Of a DNA stretch of 64,000 nucleotides, positions 5,680-59,705 are shown piece by piece (the first letter of the stretch is position 1; each line of letters opens with the position of its first letter). The notes under the pieces are model-generated. The model did no database searches, was not told the origin of the DNA, and saw only the letters and a program-made list of their open reading frames with translations. Source of the stretch: Alphaproteobacteria bacterium (lineage in GTDB: Bacteria > Pseudomonadota > Alphaproteobacteria > Thalassobaculales > Thalassobaculaceae). Where the stretch lies: the NCBI GenBank assembly GCA_024742605.1, contig JANSYC010000007.1, forward strand, positions 1 to 64,000, read 5' to 3'. The position numbers were made by a program, and so were the translations under genes.

Positions 5680-6959
5680 CATCGGCCGGCGAACCTGGTG
5701 GAACTCAGCCGCCGCTTCGGATTCTGATGGTGAACTCGACCTATGACGCGCCGATGGTCGGCGGCGCGCAGCGGTCGGTGCGCTTGCTGGCGGAGGCGCT
5801 GGCGTCGCGGGGGCATCGGGTGGTGGTGCTCTGCCTGACATCCGAACCGCGTCCCACCCTGCGGCGGGTGGGCGGCTTGCGGGTGTTGGGCCTGCCGATC
5901 CGAAATCTCTATTGGCCGTTCGGGTCGGATCATCAGGGGGCTGCGCGGAAGCTGCTCTGGCATGCCGTGGACAGCCACAATCCGATCATGTCGAGGCTGA
6001 TCGCACGGGTCGTGCGGGCCACCCGGAGCAACATCGTTCACAGCAACGCCATGAGCGGTCTGTCGACCGCGATCTGGACCGGCGCACGCTCCGCCGGCGC
6101 GACCGTCGTGCATACCCTGCGCGACTATCATACGCTCTGTCCGAGAACGAGCGTGTTCCGGAACGGCCGGAGTTGCCGGTCCCGGTGCGCCGACTGCCGG
6201 GCCCTGTCCTGGCCCCGGGTGGCGGACAGCGGCTCGGTCAATGCCGTGGTCGGAAACAGCCGTCACATCCTGGACCGGCATCTCGGTGCGGGCGCATTCA
6301 AGACGGCATCCGTCCAGCGGGTGATCAGCGGGCCGATCGATCTCCATGCCGGATCCGGAGACCGGGGGGGGCTGGGACCCGGACCCGTCCGGAAGCCGGG
6401 CGACCCGCCCCTTCGGCTCGGTTTCCTCGGCAAGCTTTCGGCCGAGAAAGGGATTGAGGAGCTGTGCCGCGCGGTCTCGGACAGCGGTTCGGAGCGCTGC
6501 GGTCTGATCATCGCAGGCGATGGCGACGGGGCGTATGTCGACCGGCTGCGGGCCAGCTACGAAGGCTCGGCGGTCCGGTTTCTGGGGCGGATCGACGACC
6601 CGACCGATGTGTTGCGCCGGATCGACGCCCTAGTGGTGCCGTCGGTCTGGGAAGAGCCGCTCAGCCGGACGATTTTCGAGGCCTACGGTGCCGGGGTCCC
6701 GGTGATCGTTTCCAACCGTGGCGGCAATCCCGAGGCGGTCGATCCGGGCGTCACCGGGTTCGTGGTGGACCCGGAGCAGCCGCAGGCGTTCAGCGGTCTT
6801 TTGTGTGAACTGGCGGCCGCTCCGGAACGGCTCGCGGCGATGCGCCCGGCCGCCTTCGCGAAAGCCGATTGCTTCAGCCAGGCCAAAGTCGCGAAAGCCT
6901 ACGAGGCCGTCTATTACGATACCCGTACGCCCCGGGGCGTGCCCGGGTTGAAATCTTGA
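5676..6959 (+). CDS. Glycosyltransferase family 4
   Basis: 427 residues from the ATG at 5676, which has a GGGGAG site and overlaps the flippase stop (ATGA). The N-terminus has RILMVNSTYDAPMVGGAQRS, the GT4 acceptor-side loop. The donor-side strand is LRLGFLGKLSAEKGIEEL (near residue 250), and the E-x7-E region is VPSVWEEPLSRTIFEAYGAG (near 325). A central CRSRCADC cluster (near residues 167-174) may bind metal; similar Cys clusters occur in some GT4 enzymes. It probably adds a residue to the same glycan as its operon neighbours. An in-frame extension upstream to 5337 exists but would lie over the flippase gene. Confidence 0.88.
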   Translation: MTSAGEPGGTQPPLRILMVNSTYDAPMVGGAQRSVRLLAEALASRGHRVVVLCLTSEPRPTLRRVGGLRVLGLPIRNLYWPFGSDHQGAARKLLWHAVDSHNPIMSRLIARVVRATRSNIVHSNAMSGLSTAIWTGARSAGATVVHTLRDYHTLCPRTSVFRNGRSCRSRCADCRALSWPRVADSGSVNAVVGNSRHILDRHLGAGAFKTASVQRVISGPIDLHAGSGDRGGLGPGPVRKPGDPPLRLGFLGKLSAEKGIEELCRAVSDSGSERCGLIIAGDGDGAYVDRLRASYEGSAVRFLGRIDDPTDVLRRIDALVVPSVWEEPLSRTIFEAYGAGVPVIVSNRGGNPEAVDPGVTGFVVDPEQPQAFSGLLCELAAAPERLAAMRPAAFAKADCFSQAKVAKAYEAVYYDTRTPRGVPGLKS

Positions 6960-7280
6960 TCGAGAACCAGCGTCATTCCGAAATTAGAAGGATGCGGCGA
7001 GATCATGGCGGCACTCGCTCCGGTGCAATCCGCCTGCAGTCTAGGGAGCGGGCCGGTTTCCGACCGGACAGGGTCGGGTTGGTGGCAGATCGCCGGGCCC
7101 ACCGGTTTGGTGTTTGATGTGTTCGGATGATCGATGATCTCTCGACACGCTCTTGTCCCGGCGGATTGTCCGCATATGTCAGGACACTATCGGTGGGATG
7201 ATGGTGTTCTGCTTGCTTATAGGTAGGCGGGGCGTCATTGTTCGCCCTTTCTGTAGAAGACCCCGCGAGAGGGAGGATCC
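6960..7280 (+). other. Intergenic region upstream of the transhydrogenase operon
   Basis: 321 bases without a convincing gene. It separates the polysaccharide operon from pntAA and must hold the pnt promoter. TTGTCC...TATGTC at about 7153-7180 is only a weak candidate. A strong ribosome-binding site (GAGGGAGGA) lies just before the pntAA start. No intrinsic terminator with a T-run is visible after the glycosyltransferase. Confidence 0.6.
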
Positions 7281-8609
7281 ATGAAGATCGGAATCGCCAA
7301 GGAAACGCGCCCGGGCGAAAAGCGCGTCGCGGCGTCGGTGGAAACCGTCAAGAAGTTCATTCAGTTGGGCTTCGAGGTGCAGATCGAGTCCGGCGCTGGA
7401 GTTTCGGCCTCCATCACCGACAAGATGCTTGAGGGCGCGGGCGCGAAAATCGTCAAGACAGCCAAGGACGCGCTGGGCGATGTCGACATCGCGTTGAAGG
7501 TGCGCAAGCCGACCGAGGACGAGATCAAGCTCATCAAGAAGGGCACGGTTCTCGTGTGCCTCATGGAGCCGTTCAAGGATCGGGCGTTGATCGATGGGAT
7601 CGCGGCGCAGGGTCTGACGACCTTCGCCCTGGAATTCGTCCCCCGCATCACGCGCGCGCAGTCGATGGACGTGCTGTCCTCCCAATCCAATCTCTCGGGT
7701 TACCGCGCAGTTCTCGATGCGGCCTATGAGTTCGGCCGGGCGTTTCCGATGATGATGACGGCCGCCGGGACTATCCCGCCGGCGCGGGCGCTGGTCATGG
7801 GGGCCGGCGTGGCCGGTCTGCAGGCGATCGCCACCGCCCGCCGGTTGGGTGCGATCGTCAGTGCGACCGATGTGCGTCCGGCCGCCAAGGAGCAGGTCGA
7901 GAGCCTGGGCGCCACGTTCGTTGCCGTGGAAGACGATGAGTTCAAGGCCGCAGAGACTTCCGGCGGCTACGCCAAGGAAATGAGCGACGAGTACAAGAAG
8001 AAGCAGGCCGACCTGATCGCCGAGACCATCAAGAAGCAGGATATGGTGATCACCACGGCCCTGATTCCCGGTCGCCCGGCACCGGTGCTGGTGACGGAGG
8101 ACATGGTCAAGACCATGAAGCCTGGGTCGGTGATCGTGGATCTGGCGGTCGAGCAGGGCGGGAACTGTCCCCTGTCCGAGCCGGGCAAGGTCGTCGTCAA
8201 GCATGGCGTGACGATCATCGGCCACCTGGATGTGGCCAGCCGGATCGCCGATGACGCGAGTCTGCTCTACGCAAAGAACCTGCTGAACTTCGTCACCCCG
8301 ATGGTCGACAAGGAAAGCAAGTCGCTCAAGATCAACGAGGAAGACGAGATCATCGCGGCGTCGATGATCACCAAGGACGGCAAGATCACCGATGAGCGGG
8401 TCGAAGCCCTGAAGGCGGAAGGTGCGGGCAAGACTGCCAGTGCCGAGGAAAAGAAGCCCGCTGCCAAGAAGGCCGCTCCGAGAAAACCGGCTGCGAAGAA
8501 GCCCGCGGCTAAGGCGGCCGCCGACAAGACCCCGGCTTCTAAAGCGCCGGCTTCGAAAGCGGATGATTCCGCTTCGGCCGCTCCGGCATCCGACAAGACG
8601 AGCTCCTGA
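7281..8609 (+). CDS. pntAA: NAD(P) transhydrogenase subunit alpha part 1 (dI, NAD(H)-binding)
   Basis: 442 residues. The start [19 protein letters not shown] is the family signature (alanine dehydrogenase/PNT N-terminal domain). The NAD(H) Rossmann motif is [20 protein letters not shown] (near residues 173-192), followed by the mobile-loop region. It binds NAD(H) in the cytoplasm and exchanges hydride with the NADP(H) domain of PntB while protons cross the membrane. Family members with this split architecture are about 380-390 residues; this one has an extra C-terminal tail of about 50 residues made of Lys/Ala/Pro repeats ([17 protein letters not shown]). First gene of pntAA-pntAB-pntB. Confidence 0.97.
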
Positions 8610-8620
8610 GGGGAAAGCAG

Positions 8621-9046
8621 ATGTCAGACTCAAACCTTTCAGAAAAGCTGCGCGAAATCGCCGAGGACGCGCGGGAACTGGCGCATGAGGCCTCGGAGGC
8701 CGCCCGTCAGGCGGTTGATGGCGTGGCCGCTGCGGCACCCGGCGTTCCGGTGGAGCAGGTCGGGATCAACCCGTTCGTGACGGGCCTGACCGTTTTCGCA
8801 CTGGCCTGTTTCGTCGGGTATTACGTGGTCTGGCGGGTCACGCCGGCCCTGCACTCGCCGTTGATGGCCGTGACCAATGCGATCTCCTCCGTGATCATCG
8901 TGGGGGCCCTGATCGCCGCAGGTCCGGCGGATATCAGTTTCGCCTCGGTCATGGGCTTCTTTGCCGTGATCCTGGCCAGCGTGAACATCTTCGGAGGGTT
9001 CCTGGTGACCCAGCGGATGCTGTCCATGTTCAAGAAAAAATCATAA
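8621..9046 (+). CDS. pntAB: NAD(P) transhydrogenase subunit alpha part 2 (dII, membrane)
   Basis: 141 residues. A hydrophilic N-terminal region rich in Glu/Ala is followed by at least three hydrophobic segments (around residues 50-68, 78-100 and 105-125), ending in [13 protein letters not shown]. This matches the short membrane subunit of three-gene transhydrogenases, which supplies part of the proton channel together with PntB. The N-terminal extension before the first membrane helix (about 45 residues) looks longer than the minimal subunit. It lies 11 bases after pntAA and 18 before pntB. Confidence 0.93.
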
Positions 9047-9064
9047 GGCGAGGGAGACACAGAC

Positions 9065-10468
9065 ATGAGCGTATCACTCGCCGCATTCCTGTACCTGATT
9101 TCCGGCATCTGCTTCATCATGGCACTGCGGGGCCTGTCGCATCCGTCGACGGCGCGTCAGGGGAACACGTTCGGCATGGTCGGCATGGCGATCGCCATTC
9201 TGACCACCCTGGCCCTTCCGGGGGTTCTGTCCTACGAGATGATCATCCTCGGAATCCTGATCGGCGGTGCCATCGGCGCGATCATCGCCAAGAAGATCGA
9301 GATGACGGCTCTGCCTCAGCTCGTCGCCGGGTTTCATTCGCTGGTCGGTCTGGCTGCCTGTTTCGTGGCCGTGTCCGCCTATTACGAGCCGGCCGCCTAC
9401 GGAATCGGCACCAAGGGAGCGATTCAGGTTGCCTCGCTGATCGAGATGGCCTTGGGGCTCGCCATCGGTGCGGTGACCTTCACCGGCTCTATCGTCGCCT
9501 TCGCGAAGCTGCAGGGGCTCGTCTCGGGCCGTCCGCTGGTGTTCACCGGCCAGCATATGCTGAATCTGGCCCTGGGCGTTCTGCTGATCGTTCTGGTCAT
9601 CGCCCTGTGCACCACCCAGTCTGATACGACCTTCTGGCTGATCTTCGTGGTGGCGCTGGCCCTCGGGTTCCTGCTGATCCTGCCGATCGGCGGCGCCGAC
9701 ATGCCGGTGGTGGTCTCGATGCTGAACTCGTATTCGGGTTGGGCCGCGGCGGGTATCGGGTTCACGCTCGAGAACAACCTGTTGATCGTGACCGGCGCTC
9801 TGGTCGGGTCTTCGGGTGCGATCCTGAGCTACATCATGTGCAAGGGCATGAACCGCTCGTTCTTCAACGTGATCCTGGGCGGCTTCGGCGGGGACGATTC
9901 CGCGGCGGCGGCTGCCGGTGGCTACGACGGCGACCGCACGGTCAAGTCGGGTTCGGCGGACGATGCGGCGTTCATCCTCGACAATGCGGGCTCCGTGATC
10001 ATCGTGCCGGGCTACGGCATGGCGGTCGCTCAAGCGCAGCACGCGCTGCGCGAGATGGGCGACCAGCTCAAGGCGAAGGGCGTCAAGGTCCGGTATGCGA
10101 TCCACCCGGTCGCCGGACGTATGCCGGGTCATATGAACGTGCTGCTGGCCGAGGCCAACGTGCCTTATGACGAGGTCCTGGAGTTGGACGAAATCAACCG
10201 TGATTTCTCCAGCACCGATGTCGCCTTTGTGATCGGTGCGAACGACGTCACCAATCCGGCAGCCAAGACCGACCCGTCGAGCCCCATCTACGGCATGCCG
10301 ATCCTGGACGTTGAGAATGCCGGGACCGTGCTGTTCATCAAGCGCTCCATGGGCTCCGGCTATGCCGGCGTCGAGAACGAGGTGTTCTTCCGCGACAACA
10401 CGATGATGCTGTTCGGCGACGCCAAGAAAATGTGCGAGGAAATCGTGCACGCGATGGACCAGCTCTAG
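9065..10468 (+). CDS. pntB: NAD(P) transhydrogenase subunit beta (dII-dIII, NADP(H)-binding)
   Basis: 467 residues. The N-terminal two thirds is a membrane domain with about eight or nine helices. The C-terminal domain III contains the NADP(H) fingerprint GYGMAVAQAQ (near residue 316) and downstream stretches IHPVAGRMPGHMNVLLAEA and VIGANDVTNPAA that are nearly invariant in the family. It uses the proton gradient to drive hydride transfer from NADH to NADP+. It is followed 22 bases downstream by an intrinsic terminator, which marks the end of the operon. Confidence 0.98.
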   Translation: MSVSLAAFLYLISGICFIMALRGLSHPSTARQGNTFGMVGMAIAILTTLALPGVLSYEMIILGILIGGAIGAIIAKKIEMTALPQLVAGFHSLVGLAACFVAVSAYYEPAAYGIGTKGAIQVASLIEMALGLAIGAVTFTGSIVAFAKLQGLVSGRPLVFTGQHMLNLALGVLLIVLVIALCTTQSDTTFWLIFVVALALGFLLILPIGGADMPVVVSMLNSYSGWAAAGIGFTLENNLLIVTGALVGSSGAILSYIMCKGMNRSFFNVILGGFGGDDSAAAAAGGYDGDRTVKSGSADDAAFILDNAGSVIIVPGYGMAVAQAQHALREMGDQLKAKGVKVRYAIHPVAGRMPGHMNVLLAEANVPYDEVLELDEINRDFSSTDVAFVIGANDVTNPAAKTDPSSPIYGMPILDVENAGTVLFIKRSMGSGYAGVENEVFFRDNTMMLFGDAKKMCEEIVHAMDQL

Positions 10469-40198: not shown

Positions 40199-40957
40199 TC
40201 AGGTCTCGGCACCGCCATTGGCGGCGATCATCTGACCGTTGATGAACCCGCCCGCATCCGATGCCAGGAACCCGGTCAGGGCGGCGATGTCCTCCGGCGT
40301 GCCCAACCGGCCGACCGGGATGCGTCCCAGTTGGCTCTTGATGTGATGGGTCATGCTCTCGTCCTTGTGCTCGCTCAGGATCGGACCCGGAGAGATCGCG
40401 TTCGCGGTCACCCCTTTCGGGCCCAGTTCCTTGGCGAGCGACTTGGTGAGCCCCCAGAGCCCGTGCTTGGCGGCGGAGACCGGCGCGCGGCCGGCGTAGC
40501 CGTGGATCGCGTTCATGCCGGTCAGATTGACGATGCGCCCCCAGCCTGCCTCGACCATGCCGGGACCGAAGGCGCGGGCGGTGTAGAAGCTGGAATGGAG
40601 ATCGGTGTCGATCACCCGGTGCCAGTCGGCGTCGCTCATCTCCAGGAACGGCTTCTCCGGCCGGATGGCGGCGTTGTTCACCACGACATGGACGGTTCCG
40701 AACGCGGCCAGGGCCTGTTTCGCCATTTCGGTCACCTGCTCGGAGCGGCCCACGTCTCCCATGACCACCAGGACCTTCCGGCCCAGCGCCGTCACCTCCT
40801 TGGCCACCGCGTCGCAGACGGCCTGGTCCGCACGGCCGTTCAGCACGATGTCGGCACCGCGTGCCGCGAGCTCGAGGGCGATCGCCCGGCCGATATTCCG
40901 GCCCGCACCGGAGATGAAGGCGGCCTTCCCGCTGAGCGACTCTGTCGTGCCGGTCAT
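40199..40957 (-). CDS. Short-chain dehydrogenase/reductase homologue with altered active site
   Basis: 252 residues. The cofactor motif GAGRNIGRAIALELA (near residue 17), VNNAAIRPEKP (near 93) and the C-terminal NAISPGPILSE and GGFINGQMIAANGG place it among FabG-like SDRs. The usual catalytic Tyr-x3-Lys appears as APVSAAKHG: the Lys is kept but the Tyr position is Val. The Ser position is changed too (NLTGMNAIHG). Normal SDR catalysis is therefore doubtful. The start overlaps the stop of the upstream AhpD-like gene (ATGA), so the two are co-expressed. Confidence 0.85.
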   Translation of the reverse strand: MTGTTESLSGKAAFISGAGRNIGRAIALELAARGADIVLNGRADQAVCDAVAKEVTALGRKVLVVMGDVGRSEQVTEMAKQALAAFGTVHVVVNNAAIRPEKPFLEMSDADWHRVIDTDLHSSFYTARAFGPGMVEAGWGRIVNLTGMNAIHGYAGRAPVSAAKHGLWGLTKSLAKELGPKGVTANAISPGPILSEHKDESMTHHIKSQLGRIPVGRLGTPEDIAALTGFLASDAGGFINGQMIAANGGAET

Positions 40958-41556
40958 TCCGCGGCCTCCCCGGTCTTATGGGTGGGCAGGCTGGCCTGGG
41001 TGAATCCCCGTGCCAGCATGTCGTCCATCACGCCGTCTTCCATCTCGATCTGCAGCGCGTCGTTGAACCGGTTGAAGAAGCCGCACAGGGCGGTGCGCAG
41101 GGTCAGCTCGACGATCTGCTCCTCGGAGAAATGCGCCTTCAGCTGCTCGAACATGCCGTCGCGGATCATGTAGGGGGTGTTCGACACCTTGATCGCGTAG
41201 TCGCGCACCAGATGATCGACCGCATCGAAGCCGGGCACCTCCGGGTCGAGGATGTTCTCGACCGCCTCGACGCTGACGCCCTGCTCCTGCAGCCGGGGGG
41301 CGTGATGGGCGACGCAATAGGGGCATTCGGTCAGTTTGGAGACCACCACCAGGGCGATCTCCAGATAGCGCTTCGGCAGCACCGTCTCGTCGGCGAATTC
41401 CAGCAGCATCGCCATCAGATGGCGCAGCGCCGGCGGGCGGTGGGCGAAGACCTTCACCTGGTTGAGGAACGGGCCGTATTCGGTGGCGAACCGCTGGTAG
41501 ATCGGCCGGCAATCCTCGGGAACCTCGGCAATCTCGACATCGCGCACGCGGGCCAT
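40954..41556 (-). CDS. Carboxymuconolactone decarboxylase / AhpD-like family protein
   Basis: 200 residues from the ATG at 41556, with AGGAGG five bases upstream. The family core is LEIALVVVSKLTECPYCVAH (near residues 66-85), with the CPYC pair plus His that gives AhpD-type alkylhydroperoxidase chemistry in this fold. It is the first gene of a two-gene unit with the SDR homologue. The substrate is unknown. The gene is divergent from the ethylene-receptor-like kinase, with 181 bases between the starts. Confidence 0.85.
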   Translation of the reverse strand: MARVRDVEIAEVPEDCRPIYQRFATEYGPFLNQVKVFAHRPPALRHLMAMLLEFADETVLPKRYLEIALVVVSKLTECPYCVAHHAPRLQEQGVSVEAVENILDPEVPGFDAVDHLVRDYAIKVSNTPYMIRDGMFEQLKAHFSEEQIVELTLRTALCGFFNRFNDALQIEMEDGVMDDMLARGFTQASLPTHKTGEAAE

Positions 41557-41737
41557 TCCATCCTCCTGAACTCTTTTTGCGGAGAGCAGCTTAGCCCGGT
41601 GCTCGGCTCCATGGGAACACGGTCGTGGCGGGCGATTTGCAGGGTACCGGTGCCAAGACGACGCGAAACGAAACCGGTCGTTAACTAAGTCGAAATTTCT
41701 ATGAGGGATAACGAACGATAGAGATCGATCTTCACGG

Positions 41738-43060
41738 ATGGTGATAAGTCTTATGGGCTGGGGCGAGAAGTTCTTTTCGGTCGCGGATTTCACGCCACAT
41801 GGCTTTTGCCTGCTCTGGGACCCGGCGCTCGTCTGGACCTATTTCCTTTCCGATGCGACGATCGCCCTCGCGTATTTCTCGATTCCCGCGGCTCTGTGGG
41901 TGATCGCCAGCCGTCGGCCCGATCTGAACCCGCACGGAGTCCTGCTCGCCTTCGCGGCTTTCATCGCGATGTGCGGCCTGACCCATGTGATGGCCATGGT
42001 GACCCTGTGGCTGCCACTCTACGGGCTGTCGGGGGTCATCAAGGCGATCACCGCTCTGGTGTCCATCGTCACCGCGGCGTTGATCTGGAAGCTTCTGCAG
42101 GCGATCCTGCACACGCCCCGAGCCGTCGAACTGGCGGCCGCCAACGATGAACTGGTCCGTCTGAACGCCTCTCTGGAGACGCGGGTCGCGGAGCGCACGC
42201 AGGCCCTGCAGGAGTCCAACGCGCAGCTTCTGAGCACGGCGATCGAGGCCCGCGAGGGCGAGCGGGTGAAGCACGATTTCCTGGCCCGGGTCAGCCATGA
42301 GCTGCGGACCCCGCTGAACGCGATCCTCGGCTTCAACGATCTGATGCGGACCGGAATTTCCGGTACGCTCTCGGACAAGCACATGGAGTATTCGGAGAGT
42401 GTGAATGTCGCCGCCCAGCATCTCCTGCAGGAGATCAACGATGTGCTGGACCTGGAACGGCTGAGCGATCCGGCCAATCGGCTGAGCTTGGAGCAGGTCG
42501 ACCTGTCGGCGGAGATCGAGCAGATCGTCCGGCTGAACCAGTCCGCCTCCGGCGGACACCGGGCCAAGGTGCGGATCAATATCCTGGAGGGCTTTCAGAT
42601 TCGGGCCGACCGACATTCGATCGTGGTGATTATGGGAAATCTGGTCTCGAACGCCATCAAATACTCGCTCCCCGGCGGCGAGACCGACATCCGGGCCCGC
42701 GCCCTGCCGTCCTCCGGTCTGGTCGAAATCACGGTCGCGGACCGGGGGATCGGAATCCCCGCCAACCGGCTGTCGGATATCTTCACCCCTTTCGTCCGGG
42801 CGCACGAGACAGAACTGCCTGCCGTGGGCGGAACCGGGCTGGGGCTGTCCATCGTGAAGATGTTGGTTGAGATGCATGGCGGAGAGATCCGCGTCGCCAG
42901 CGCACCGGGTGAAGGCACGACCATGACCGTCCTGCTGCCGATCGATCCCGCCCCCTTATCGGCGGCCGGCTCGGAGCTTCAGGACCTCAAACGCATGGCG
43001 GTCGAGGGGTTCGGGATCGATCCTGCCGGCAGTCTGGCAAGCGCCCCGACCCCGTCCTGA
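41738..43060 (+). CDS. Histidine kinase with ethylene-receptor-like transmembrane sensor
   Basis: 440 residues. Three N-terminal helices carry the ethylene-binding signature: LSDATIALAYFSIP (Asp39, Tyr46, Ile49, Pro50) and MCGLTHVMAMVTLW (Cys79, His83). In plant ETR1 the equivalent Cys65/His69 bind the copper ion that holds ethylene. A coiled coil (about residues 130-175) leads to the H-box FLARVSHELRTPLNAIL (His187) and an ATPase domain with NLVSNAIKYS, DRGIGIP and GGTGLGLSIVKMLVEMHGG. No receiver domain or adjacent response regulator is present. Start: ATG 41738 or in-frame ATG 41753, neither with a strong ribosome-binding site. Confidence 0.9.
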   Translation: MVISLMGWGEKFFSVADFTPHGFCLLWDPALVWTYFLSDATIALAYFSIPAALWVIASRRPDLNPHGVLLAFAAFIAMCGLTHVMAMVTLWLPLYGLSGVIKAITALVSIVTAALIWKLLQAILHTPRAVELAAANDELVRLNASLETRVAERTQALQESNAQLLSTAIEAREGERVKHDFLARVSHELRTPLNAILGFNDLMRTGISGTLSDKHMEYSESVNVAAQHLLQEINDVLDLERLSDPANRLSLEQVDLSAEIEQIVRLNQSASGGHRAKVRINILEGFQIRADRHSIVVIMGNLVSNAIKYSLPGGETDIRARALPSSGLVEITVADRGIGIPANRLSDIFTPFVRAHETELPAVGGTGLGLSIVKMLVEMHGGEIRVASAPGEGTTMTVLLPIDPAPLSAAGSELQDLKRMAVEGFGIDPAGSLASAPTPS

Positions 43061-43066
43061 GCCCCC

Positions 43067-43849
43067 TTATCCGATGGCCTGGACGAACCGCATCTTGTCG
43101 TCGCGCATCTGGATCGCCGTCAGGACGTTCGAGAAGAACGCGCCGGTGTCCAAATTGATGCGATGGTTGGTGACGGTTGGGTCTTCGAAGGGTTCTTCCG
43201 GGGTATGGCCGTGCACCACCACCACCTCGAACGGCCAGCCGTCGGCCGGATCCAGGAAGGCATCCCGGATCCACAGCAGCGCCTCCTCCTCCTGGTTTTC
43301 GAGGGGCCGGCGCGGGTCGAGACCTGCGTGCACGAACATCCAGTCGCCGATCCGATGATGGGTCTTCAAGTGTCCCATCAGTTCCAGGACGATCTCGGGG
43401 GCGACCTCCCGAAGCCGGGCGGGGATAGCGTCGGGGGCGGGCAGAGTGGTCAGACCAAAGCTGGTCAGCGTCGCCTCCGCTCCGTTCACCAGCCAGGTCT
43501 CGATTTCCGAAACCTCCGGATCGCCCAGCAGGCTGTCGCGCAGCCACCGGTCGTGATTGCCCATGAGCACCACGTCCGCGACCGAGTCCGGAGCGCGCGA
43601 AAAGGCGGCCAGGCCGCCCGCCGCCAGTCCCAGAACATTCAGGGAATCCGAGCCGCGGTCGATCAGATCGCCCAGGAAGATGTTGGTCGCGTGATCGATT
43701 CCAGGCTTGCCCAGATCGTCCGCCAGAGCCTCCAGCAGCGGCTCCAGCAGATCGGCGCGGCCGTGCACGTCTCCGATCGCACTGATCAGGTGATCGGTGT
43801 GCACCGGTTTCGGGGTTGGCTGCCAGTCGCCGTGGGTGATGGTGATCAT
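43067..43849 (-). CDS. Metallophosphoesterase (serine/threonine phosphatase type)
   Basis: 260 residues from the ATG at 43849; a GTG at 43882 would add 11 residues. The full metal-site set is present: GDVHGR (near residue 26), GDLIDRG (near 59), GNHD (near 96), HAGLD (near 172) and HGHTPEEPF (near 212). This pattern is that of PPP-family phosphatases and diadenosine tetraphosphatases. The gene converges on the histidine kinase gene with 6 bases between stops. Its substrate is unknown. Confidence 0.9.
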   Translation of the reverse strand: MITITHGDWQPTPKPVHTDHLISAIGDVHGRADLLEPLLEALADDLGKPGIDHATNIFLGDLIDRGSDSLNVLGLAAGGLAAFSRAPDSVADVVLMGNHDRWLRDSLLGDPEVSEIETWLVNGAEATLTSFGLTTLPAPDAIPARLREVAPEIVLELMGHLKTHHRIGDWMFVHAGLDPRRPLENQEEEALLWIRDAFLDPADGWPFEVVVVHGHTPEEPFEDPTVTNHRINLDTGAFFSNVLTAIQMRDDKMRFVQAIG

Positions 43850-43904
43850 CCGACTATCGAACCTGCCGAACCGCGTCGGCACAAGCCCCGACCGTCGAGC
43901 GGCG

Positions 43905-58098: not shown

Positions 58099-58323
58099 AT
58101 GCTGGCGCATCTGCGCCGCTTCGGTCTGGACCGGTTCGTGGCGGACAGCCCGGACGGTTATGTGAGCAAGGCCTTGGCTGCAGTAGACGATCCGGCGGGA
58201 CCGGCCTCGGTGCGCGCGAGGCTCCGCCCGCGCATGCAGGCCGATATCGCGACCGATCCGGTGCGCGCTGCCCGGGCCCTGGAGGATCTGGTTCTGGATC
58301 TCTGGCGTCAAAAACAGGGTTAG
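58099..58323 (+). pseudogene. C-terminal remnant of an O-GlcNAc-transferase-like (SPINDLY) gene
   Basis: 74 residues from an ATG at 58099 with GGGACGGG upstream. The text GLDRFVADSPDGYVSKALAA, then VRARLRPRMQADIATDP and LEDLVLDLWRQK, looks like the last 70 residues of TPR/O-GlcNAc-transferase-like proteins, where the chain ends in a DLE-LW helix. The catalytic domain is absent. It could be a small stand-alone protein or a fragment left by deletion. Its stop overlaps the end of the convergent kinase gene. Confidence 0.5.
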
Positions 58324-59705
58324 GCGTCCGTCTTCGCCGCCGGGATCGTCAGCGTGAAGCGGGTGCCGCCCGGCCCGGTCTGGGACAGGGTCAGGGTCCC
58401 GCCATGGGCCTGCACGATGTCCCGCGCGATGGCGAGGCCAAGGCCGGAGCCGTCCTGTTTGGTGCTGATTCCGAAAGGCTGGAACAGTTTGGACCGCGCC
58501 GTCTCGGGAATGCCGGGACCATTGTCGGAGACGTCGATCCGCACCATGCCGTCGCGCGGCCAGGCATCGACCGAGATTCGGCCCGCGCCCGCATGGGCGG
58601 CATTCCGGGCCAGATTGGCGAACACCCGGAAGATCTGATCCCGGTCCGCCAGCACCGCCAGATGGGCGCCGTATCCGGTCTCGATCCGAACCGTCTGGCC
58701 GTTCTCGCCAGTGGAGAGGTCGCAGCCGCCGACCTCCCGCATCACGTCGGCGAGGATCACCGGGGAGCGTTTCAGGGCCGGTGTGTCGCGGGTGAAGTTC
58801 AGCGTGGTCGAGCACAGGGCGGCGGCCCGGTCGATCGACTGGATCAGGGTCGGGGCGACCCGGCGCACCTTGGGGTCGTCGCTCTGCGACAGGGTGTCGG
58901 AGATCAGGGTTGCGGTGGACAGCATGTTCCGCAGATCGTGGCTGATCTTGTTGACCGCGGTGCCGAGTGCGGCCAGCCGGGTCTGCTGGCGCAGGGCGGC
59001 GCGCAGCGCCTCCTTCATGGCGGCCAGTTCCCGCAGGGCCACGCCGATCTCGTCCCGCCGTCCCTCATCGTCCAGGTCGGTCGACCGGTCCTCGGGGGCC
59101 GCCTGGAAGGCGATCATCGACCGGGTGATCCGTTCCAGCGGGCGCACCATCAGCCAGCGCAGGCTGAGAAAGACCAAGCCGGCGGTGACCAGCGAGATGA
59201 AGATCGACAGGTTCAGGATGCGGAAGGAATAGTTCAGCATCTCGTCCCGCATCGGCGCCTCGTCGATCTCGACGATCATCAGGGTGTCGCCGCCGTCCGG
59301 TGAGTCGCCGGTCACCCGCATCACCCGGTTCTCGATCTGGGACAGGCTGCCGAACGCATCCCAGATCAAGCCGAAAAAAGTTTCCTCGCGCAGGTCGATC
59401 TCAACATCGGCCATCGGCCGCGCGGCGCGCTCCAGCATCTCCCGGGCGGTGCCGTCCCGGAACACGATCACCGCGTGGGCGCCGACCTGATTCAGCAATT
59501 CCTTTGACATCATTTCGGACAGCATGCCGTCGGGCGCGGCCCGAACGGCCTGGGCGGCCAGATAGGCCGTCTCCAGCTTCTCCTGCAGGTAGACCAGCCG
59601 GTAACGGGCCACCGAGGGGGTGTAGATCAGCACCTCCGACAGCATCACGAAAAAGCCGGTCAGCAGCAACAACCGGAAGGAGAGGGATCTGAACGAAAAC
59701 CGCAT
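58320..59705 (-). CDS. Membrane sensor histidine kinase
   Basis: 461 residues. Two N-terminal membrane helices (about residues 11-30 and 163-185) enclose a periplasmic sensor of about 130 residues. A HAMP segment follows, then the H-box region AALGTAVNKISHDLRNMLS (His near residue 258) and an ATPase domain with NLARNAAHAG, DNGPGIPETARS and GSGLGLAIARDIVQAHGG. No response regulator is adjacent. It is the third gene of the TVP38-flavoprotein-kinase run, 12 bases after the flavoprotein gene, so its signal may relate to those genes. Confidence 0.92.
   Translation of the reverse strand: MRFSFRSLSFRLLLLTGFFVMLSEVLIYTPSVARYRLVYLQEKLETAYLAAQAVRAAPDGMLSEMMSKELLNQVGAHAVIVFRDGTAREMLERAARPMADVEIDLREETFFGLIWDAFGSLSQIENRVMRVTGDSPDGGDTLMIVEIDEAPMRDEMLNYSFRILNLSIFISLVTAGLVFLSLRWLMVRPLERITRSMIAFQAAPEDRSTDLDDEGRRDEIGVALRELAAMKEALRAALRQQTRLAALGTAVNKISHDLRNMLSTATLISDTLSQSDDPKVRRVAPTLIQSIDRAAALCSTTLNFTRDTPALKRSPVILADVMREVGGCDLSTGENGQTVRIETGYGAHLAVLADRDQIFRVFANLARNAAHAGAGRISVDAWPRDGMVRIDVSDNGPGIPETARSKLFQPFGISTKQDGSGLGLAIARDIVQAHGGTLTLSQTGPGGTRFTLTIPAAKTDA

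Follow-up and report, generated by a model that had tools for sequence, protein, structure and literature searches.

An ethylene receptor of Azospirillum brasilense, AzoEtr1, has been proven by experiment in a study published in 2025: according to that report, the fragment AzoEtr1(1-130) binds 14C-ethylene in yeast, disruption of the gene nearly abolishes ethylene binding by the cells and reduces biofilm formation, the D35A and C75A forms give no rescue, and ethylene leads to lower cyclic-di-GMP (PMC11819568). Proteobacterial ethylene receptors are therefore already known, and what is added here is the orphan branch. The original prediction had called ethylene-binding kinases outside cyanobacteria and plants little studied, which stands in part but has to make room for the ethylene binding and biofilm effect shown for AzoEtr1 (PMC11819568). 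The literature search returned no publication on an ethylene receptor of the alphaproteobacterium BAL199, and for Thalassobaculum in combination with ethylene the only match, as far as its available text goes, concerns Amoebophrya-associated bacteria. Judging from sequence and a structural model, the sensor histidine kinase encoded in the window (the whole stretch of 64,000 nucleotides that was analysed) is probably a bacterial ethylene receptor that depends on Cu(I), of the same kind as ETR1, SynEtr1 and AzoEtr1.

The kinase gene (41738..43060, + strand) encodes 440 aa and, by ORF translation, Pfam and alignment, joins an ethylene-binding-type membrane domain to HisKA and HATPase_c domains. 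The Pfam domain ETR1_N (PF25487) covers residues 31-124 (41828..42109, +), with three predicted membrane helices (29-59, 65-89 and 95-125). The match to the N-terminus scores 106 bits against a cut-off of 27 (E=1.1e-30), and a profile search found the family in 0/14 control genomes; a chance resemblance is ruled out by the Pfam E-value and the orthologues. The kinase core (42269..42946, +; Pfam and alignment) consists of HisKA at residues 178-243, with phospho-acceptor His187, and HATPase_c at residues 291-403, and together with the N, D and G boxes this makes the protein a two-component sensor kinase. In the 30 receptor proteins aligned for the kinase motifs, which were picked for their short architecture, H187, N305, D335, G337, G339, G365, G367 and G369 are invariant (30/30), so that the kinase core predicted to be complete (His187, N and G boxes) is indeed so. 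Pfam detected neither PAS nor GAF between the membrane domain and the kinase. Compared with the closest relative (locus L045, 71% aa identity), the sensor domain has a dN of 0.072 and a dS of 0.44 (dN/dS about 0.16), the kinase part a dN of 0.207 and a dS of 0.95 (dN/dS about 0.22); the lowest dN marks the sensor as the most constrained part of the protein. Translation may in reality start at Met6 (ATG, 41753..41755, +), which would make the protein five residues shorter, because the upstream sequence is conserved and the codon is aligned with the starts of relatives: a Shine-Dalgarno-like GGTGA, read by eye, lies 5' of it, and L045 has GTG where the window kinase has its first ATG.

The window kinase has all seven residues on which ethylene binding depends (D, Y, I, P, I, C, H), in register with AzoEtr1, whose sequence was taken from the Sp7 plasmid record NZ_CP012915.1 (L127 5004-6581). 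The six that had been singled out beforehand (D39, Y46, I49, P50, C79 and H83) are found where they were predicted, and I76 and K102 are kept as well, which completes the receptor residue set: D39, Y46, I49, P50, I76, C79, H83 and K102 lie opposite D35, Y42, I45, P46, I72, C75, H79 and K98 of AzoEtr1. When the AzoEtr1-ETR1 correspondence described in PMC11819568 is added to our alignment, Asp39 (41852..41854, +) equals ETR1 D25, the copper ligand positions Cys79 (41972..41974, +) and His83 (41984..41986, +) equal C65 and H69, and the helix 3 output position Lys102 (42041..42043, +) equals K91.

The conservation of these positions was assessed in 85 aligned membrane domains, i.e. those of the window kinase, AzoEtr1, the window genome's own paralogue, 80 named loci and two further family members (L036-L041 and L043 were left out as duplicates of named loci). 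The 80 loci had been found by two search patterns that bias columns P20-W27 and Y46-P50, and leave D39, I76, C79, H83 and K102 free of bias. C79 and H83 are present in 85/85 domains, D39 in 82/85, K102 in 80/85 and I76 in 79/85; Y46 (84/85), I49 (85/85) and P50 (84/85) occupy columns that were partly forced by the search pattern. Eleven of the 85 domains lack the full set of eight site residues. The Y, I, P and I of the site presumably have matching positions in ETR1. Directly before helix 1, residues 20-27 (41795-41818) form a PHGxCLxW motif that contains His21 and Cys24 and also occurs in AzoEtr1; its P, H, G, C and W are each found in 85/85 domains, partly forced by the search pattern, and it might serve as an additional element for metal handling or topology.

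The AlphaFold2 model of the window kinase (30 sequences; mean pLDDT 84.9, pTM 0.61) has helices at 29-59, 65-89 and 95-125, with block pLDDT values of 64-92 over residues 31-130, followed by one helix (129-205) that runs into and through the phospho-acceptor region (DHp). With the 100-degree spacing of an ideal helix, as opposed to model coordinates, D39, Y46 and P50 point in a similar direction from helix 1, with I49 60-100 degrees off the D39 face, and I76, C79 and H83 share one face of the antiparallel helix 2. In such an arrangement D39 and C79/H83 could sit at one membrane depth, because about 10 residues separate D39 from the start of helix 1 and 6-10 residues separate C79/H83 from the end of helix 2. 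A sequence search for a solved structure of an ethylene-binding membrane domain gave light-harvesting peptides only, at chance level (E=0.2).

The mechanism we propose is that the kinase would be a dimeric inner-membrane protein, with Cu(I) held by Cys79 and His83, both positioned by Asp39, and with ethylene binding at that Cu(I). The signal would then travel along the helix that connects membrane helix 3 to the kinase and alter the autophosphorylation of His187, ethylene presumably turning the kinase down by analogy with the known receptors, and the phosphate of His187 would be passed to a response regulator encoded elsewhere in the genome. Two Cu P-type ATPases score above the family cut-off in the window genome, which is permissive only for a copper-dependent receptor because the family is present in 14/14 controls.

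The ligand of the kinase could be something other than ethylene. If it were a copper sensor, the same site would bind Cu(I) and its occupancy, not ethylene, would set kinase activity: the ETR1 site is a Cu(I) site, Cu(I) loading alone is reported to stiffen full-length ETR1 (PMC12643061), and nothing in the present data separates copper from ethylene. However, the Kd of ETR1 for Cu(I) is given as about 1e-15 M (PMC12643061), which would seem too tight for a graded sensor, the conserved positions are the ones that match AzoEtr1's ethylene site, and the adjoining genes carry CMD, SDR and metallophosphatase domains and not copper-efflux functions, so that we consider a copper sensor improbable. 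The neighbours also bear on a second alternative, in which the protein senses redox state, light or some other small molecule and has retained the membrane fold and metal site of the ethylene receptors. The divergent gene (40954..41793, - strand) encodes by Pfam a carboxymuconolactone decarboxylase/AhpD-like protein (CMD), a family with peroxidase-related members; its listed ORF overlaps the kinase start, and translation probably begins near 41557 instead. The convergent gene (43067..43882, -; Pfam) encodes a calcineurin-like metallophosphatase. SynEtr1 is moreover described as sensing light as well as ethylene (PMC11819568). Against this, the lack of PAS or GAF domains (Pfam) leaves no evident place for a chromophore, and no AhpD/CMD-like neighbour was recognised by eye in the ORF translations beside those relatives whose upstream side was readable, and we therefore give this alternative little credence. 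Copper or redox sensing is thus less likely than ethylene reception.

No ORF of at least 80 aa with a REC domain occurs in the 64 kb window, in line with the original prediction that the kinase has no neighbouring regulator. A second histidine-kinase-like ORF (58320-59705, -; 461 aa) likewise lacks a receiver-domain ORF within the window. A search for the partner regulator by similarity singled out no candidate: the window genome holds 43 REC matches, and its other kinases, among the matches listed, are only about 34-38% identical to the window kinase. The genome also contains a second ETR1_N gene (L003 7869-9851; G000:C57:15868-17850), encoding a 660-aa hybrid (EBD-HisKA-HATPase-REC-Hpt) with a membrane domain 54% identical to that of the window kinase and followed 3' by genes for a TylF-like methyltransferase and a pirin. 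This hybrid was rejected as an obligatory partner: six of the eight genomes that carry the domain have one ETR1_N gene only, in all six of the orphan type, which rules the hybrid out as a general partner.

In the tree of the 85 domains the window kinase stands apart from AzoEtr1, in a supported set of eight (96/90) made up entirely of short kinases without an adjoining regulator; the wider set around it (15 members, 96/75, drawn open) includes 13 orphans of that kind. Within 3 kb of these receptors no response-regulator gene was seen for any of the eight branch members in the available sequence (which for L045 amounts to 252 bases upstream), and the missing regulator is a trait common to this Thalassobaculaceae-type alphaproteobacterial branch. 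The 85 tree rows divide into 26 hybrids, 32 kinases with a regulator at most 600 bases away, 18 orphan kinases and nine others, the last label including truncated genes and HWE-type kinases missed by the kinase profile. That the gene is a decayed or non-signalling receptor, a partnerless remnant as the lack of any response regulator across the 64 kb might suggest, is very improbable in view of the invariance of all kinase motifs, the dN/dS of about 0.16 (sensor) and 0.22 (kinase) and the same orphan state in 8/8 branch members.

The relatives of the window kinase, taken here as a candidate ethylene receptor, include proteins of an uncultured Rhodospirillaceae MAG (71%), Thalassobaculum litoreum, T. 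fulvum, alphaproteobacterium BAL199 and others. The survey for ETR1_N covered 25 of the 36 genomes of the same genus and family (G000-G035; 11 lay outside it) and recovered the domain in 8/25 (the window genome included), representing 3/12 genera. Identity to the window kinase in the DHp is 51-60% in five Thalassobaculaceae relatives and 79% in L045. A protein of 724-725 aa, which looks like malate synthase G, is encoded near the receptor in five of the six Thalassobaculaceae relatives outside the window's genus (L047, L048, L050, L051 and L042). Another Thalassobaculaceae genome (L044, genome G034) encodes an 823-aa hybrid EBD kinase (6663-9134) with an OmpR-type regulator gene (9188-9958) 54 bases away.

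A lead to the output comes from three Thalassobaculum-group genomes, in which a small PilZ-like gene (L050 9286-9657, L051 9235-9603 and L042 8662-9033) lies directly downstream of the receptor on the same strand, at 49-103 bases from its 3' end. The encoded proteins of 122-123 aa display RxxxR and NxSxxG, which we take to be the PilZ motif; the Pfam PilZ profile matched one of the three at E=0.054 and the other two not at all. A homologue of this gene (44%) is found elsewhere in the window genome (C57:70350). The PilZ-like neighbour points to a cyclic-di-GMP output, as a weak lead and not as evidence for the window gene. Two fusions elsewhere in the family appear from their domains to be direct cyclic-di-GMP outputs: ETR1_N joined to PAS-GGDEF in a Verrucomicrobiaceae MAG (L070 8007-9959; site kept, Ala at the helix-3 Lys) and to PAS-GGDEF-EAL in Methylovulum miyakonense (L104 7956-10595; site Asp replaced by His, helix-3 Lys by Leu).

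From organism names and general knowledge we assume that several relatives of the window kinase are marine. It is conceivable, if rather unlikely as a whole, that a largely marine branch reads ethylene, for example made by sunlight, via a minimal receptor devoid of PAS and an unlinked, shared regulator that leads to cyclic-di-GMP and PilZ, with no plant involved. Sunlight acting on dissolved organics is described as yielding ethylene in water (PMC6682694, citing seawater studies). If this were true, ethylene would be a signal of open-water heterotrophic bacteria, beyond plants, plant associates and cyanobacteria. If ethylene is bound at all, proven proteobacterial reception would reach beyond a single plant-associated species into a separate alphaproteobacterial lineage with several members that are marine by name and with a minimal architecture of sensor and kinase only. 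This small build and the availability of cultured relatives (Thalassobaculum litoreum, T. fulvum) make for a convenient system to study the coupling between ethylene binding and the activity of the kinase.

Compared with the known systems, the window kinase resembles plant ETR1 in the Pfam ETR1_N domain and in the copper-site residues (a correspondence drawn via PMC11819568 and not by direct alignment), yet it lacks the GAF and receiver domains of the ETR1 layout given in PMC12643061; we expect that it would signal by phosphotransfer and not through a CTR1-type kinase. With SynEtr1 (slr1212) of Synechocystis, as described in PMC11819568 and PMC7700396, it shares the combination of a histidine kinase with a membrane domain of the ethylene-binding type, whereas SynEtr1 senses light too and signals to the response regulator slr1213, and no such gene adjoins the window kinase. 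AzoEtr1 is likewise alphaproteobacterial, has a histidine kinase output and is 40% identical in the membrane domain over 135 positions; unlike the window kinase it comprises 525 aa with a PAS domain, its kinase core is by eye visibly different, and a response-regulator gene overlaps its end. The Sphingomonadales EBD-kinases (e.g. L055, L058, L062 and L080) have membrane domains about 47-55% identical to that of the window kinase, in contrast to a DHp that is 10-16% identical, and a regulator gene adjoins theirs; for receptors such as the four named, the figures are 51-53% in the sensor and about 12-16% in the DHp. Because these receptors match the window kinase in the sensor and not in the DHp, one sensor has been joined to different kinases.
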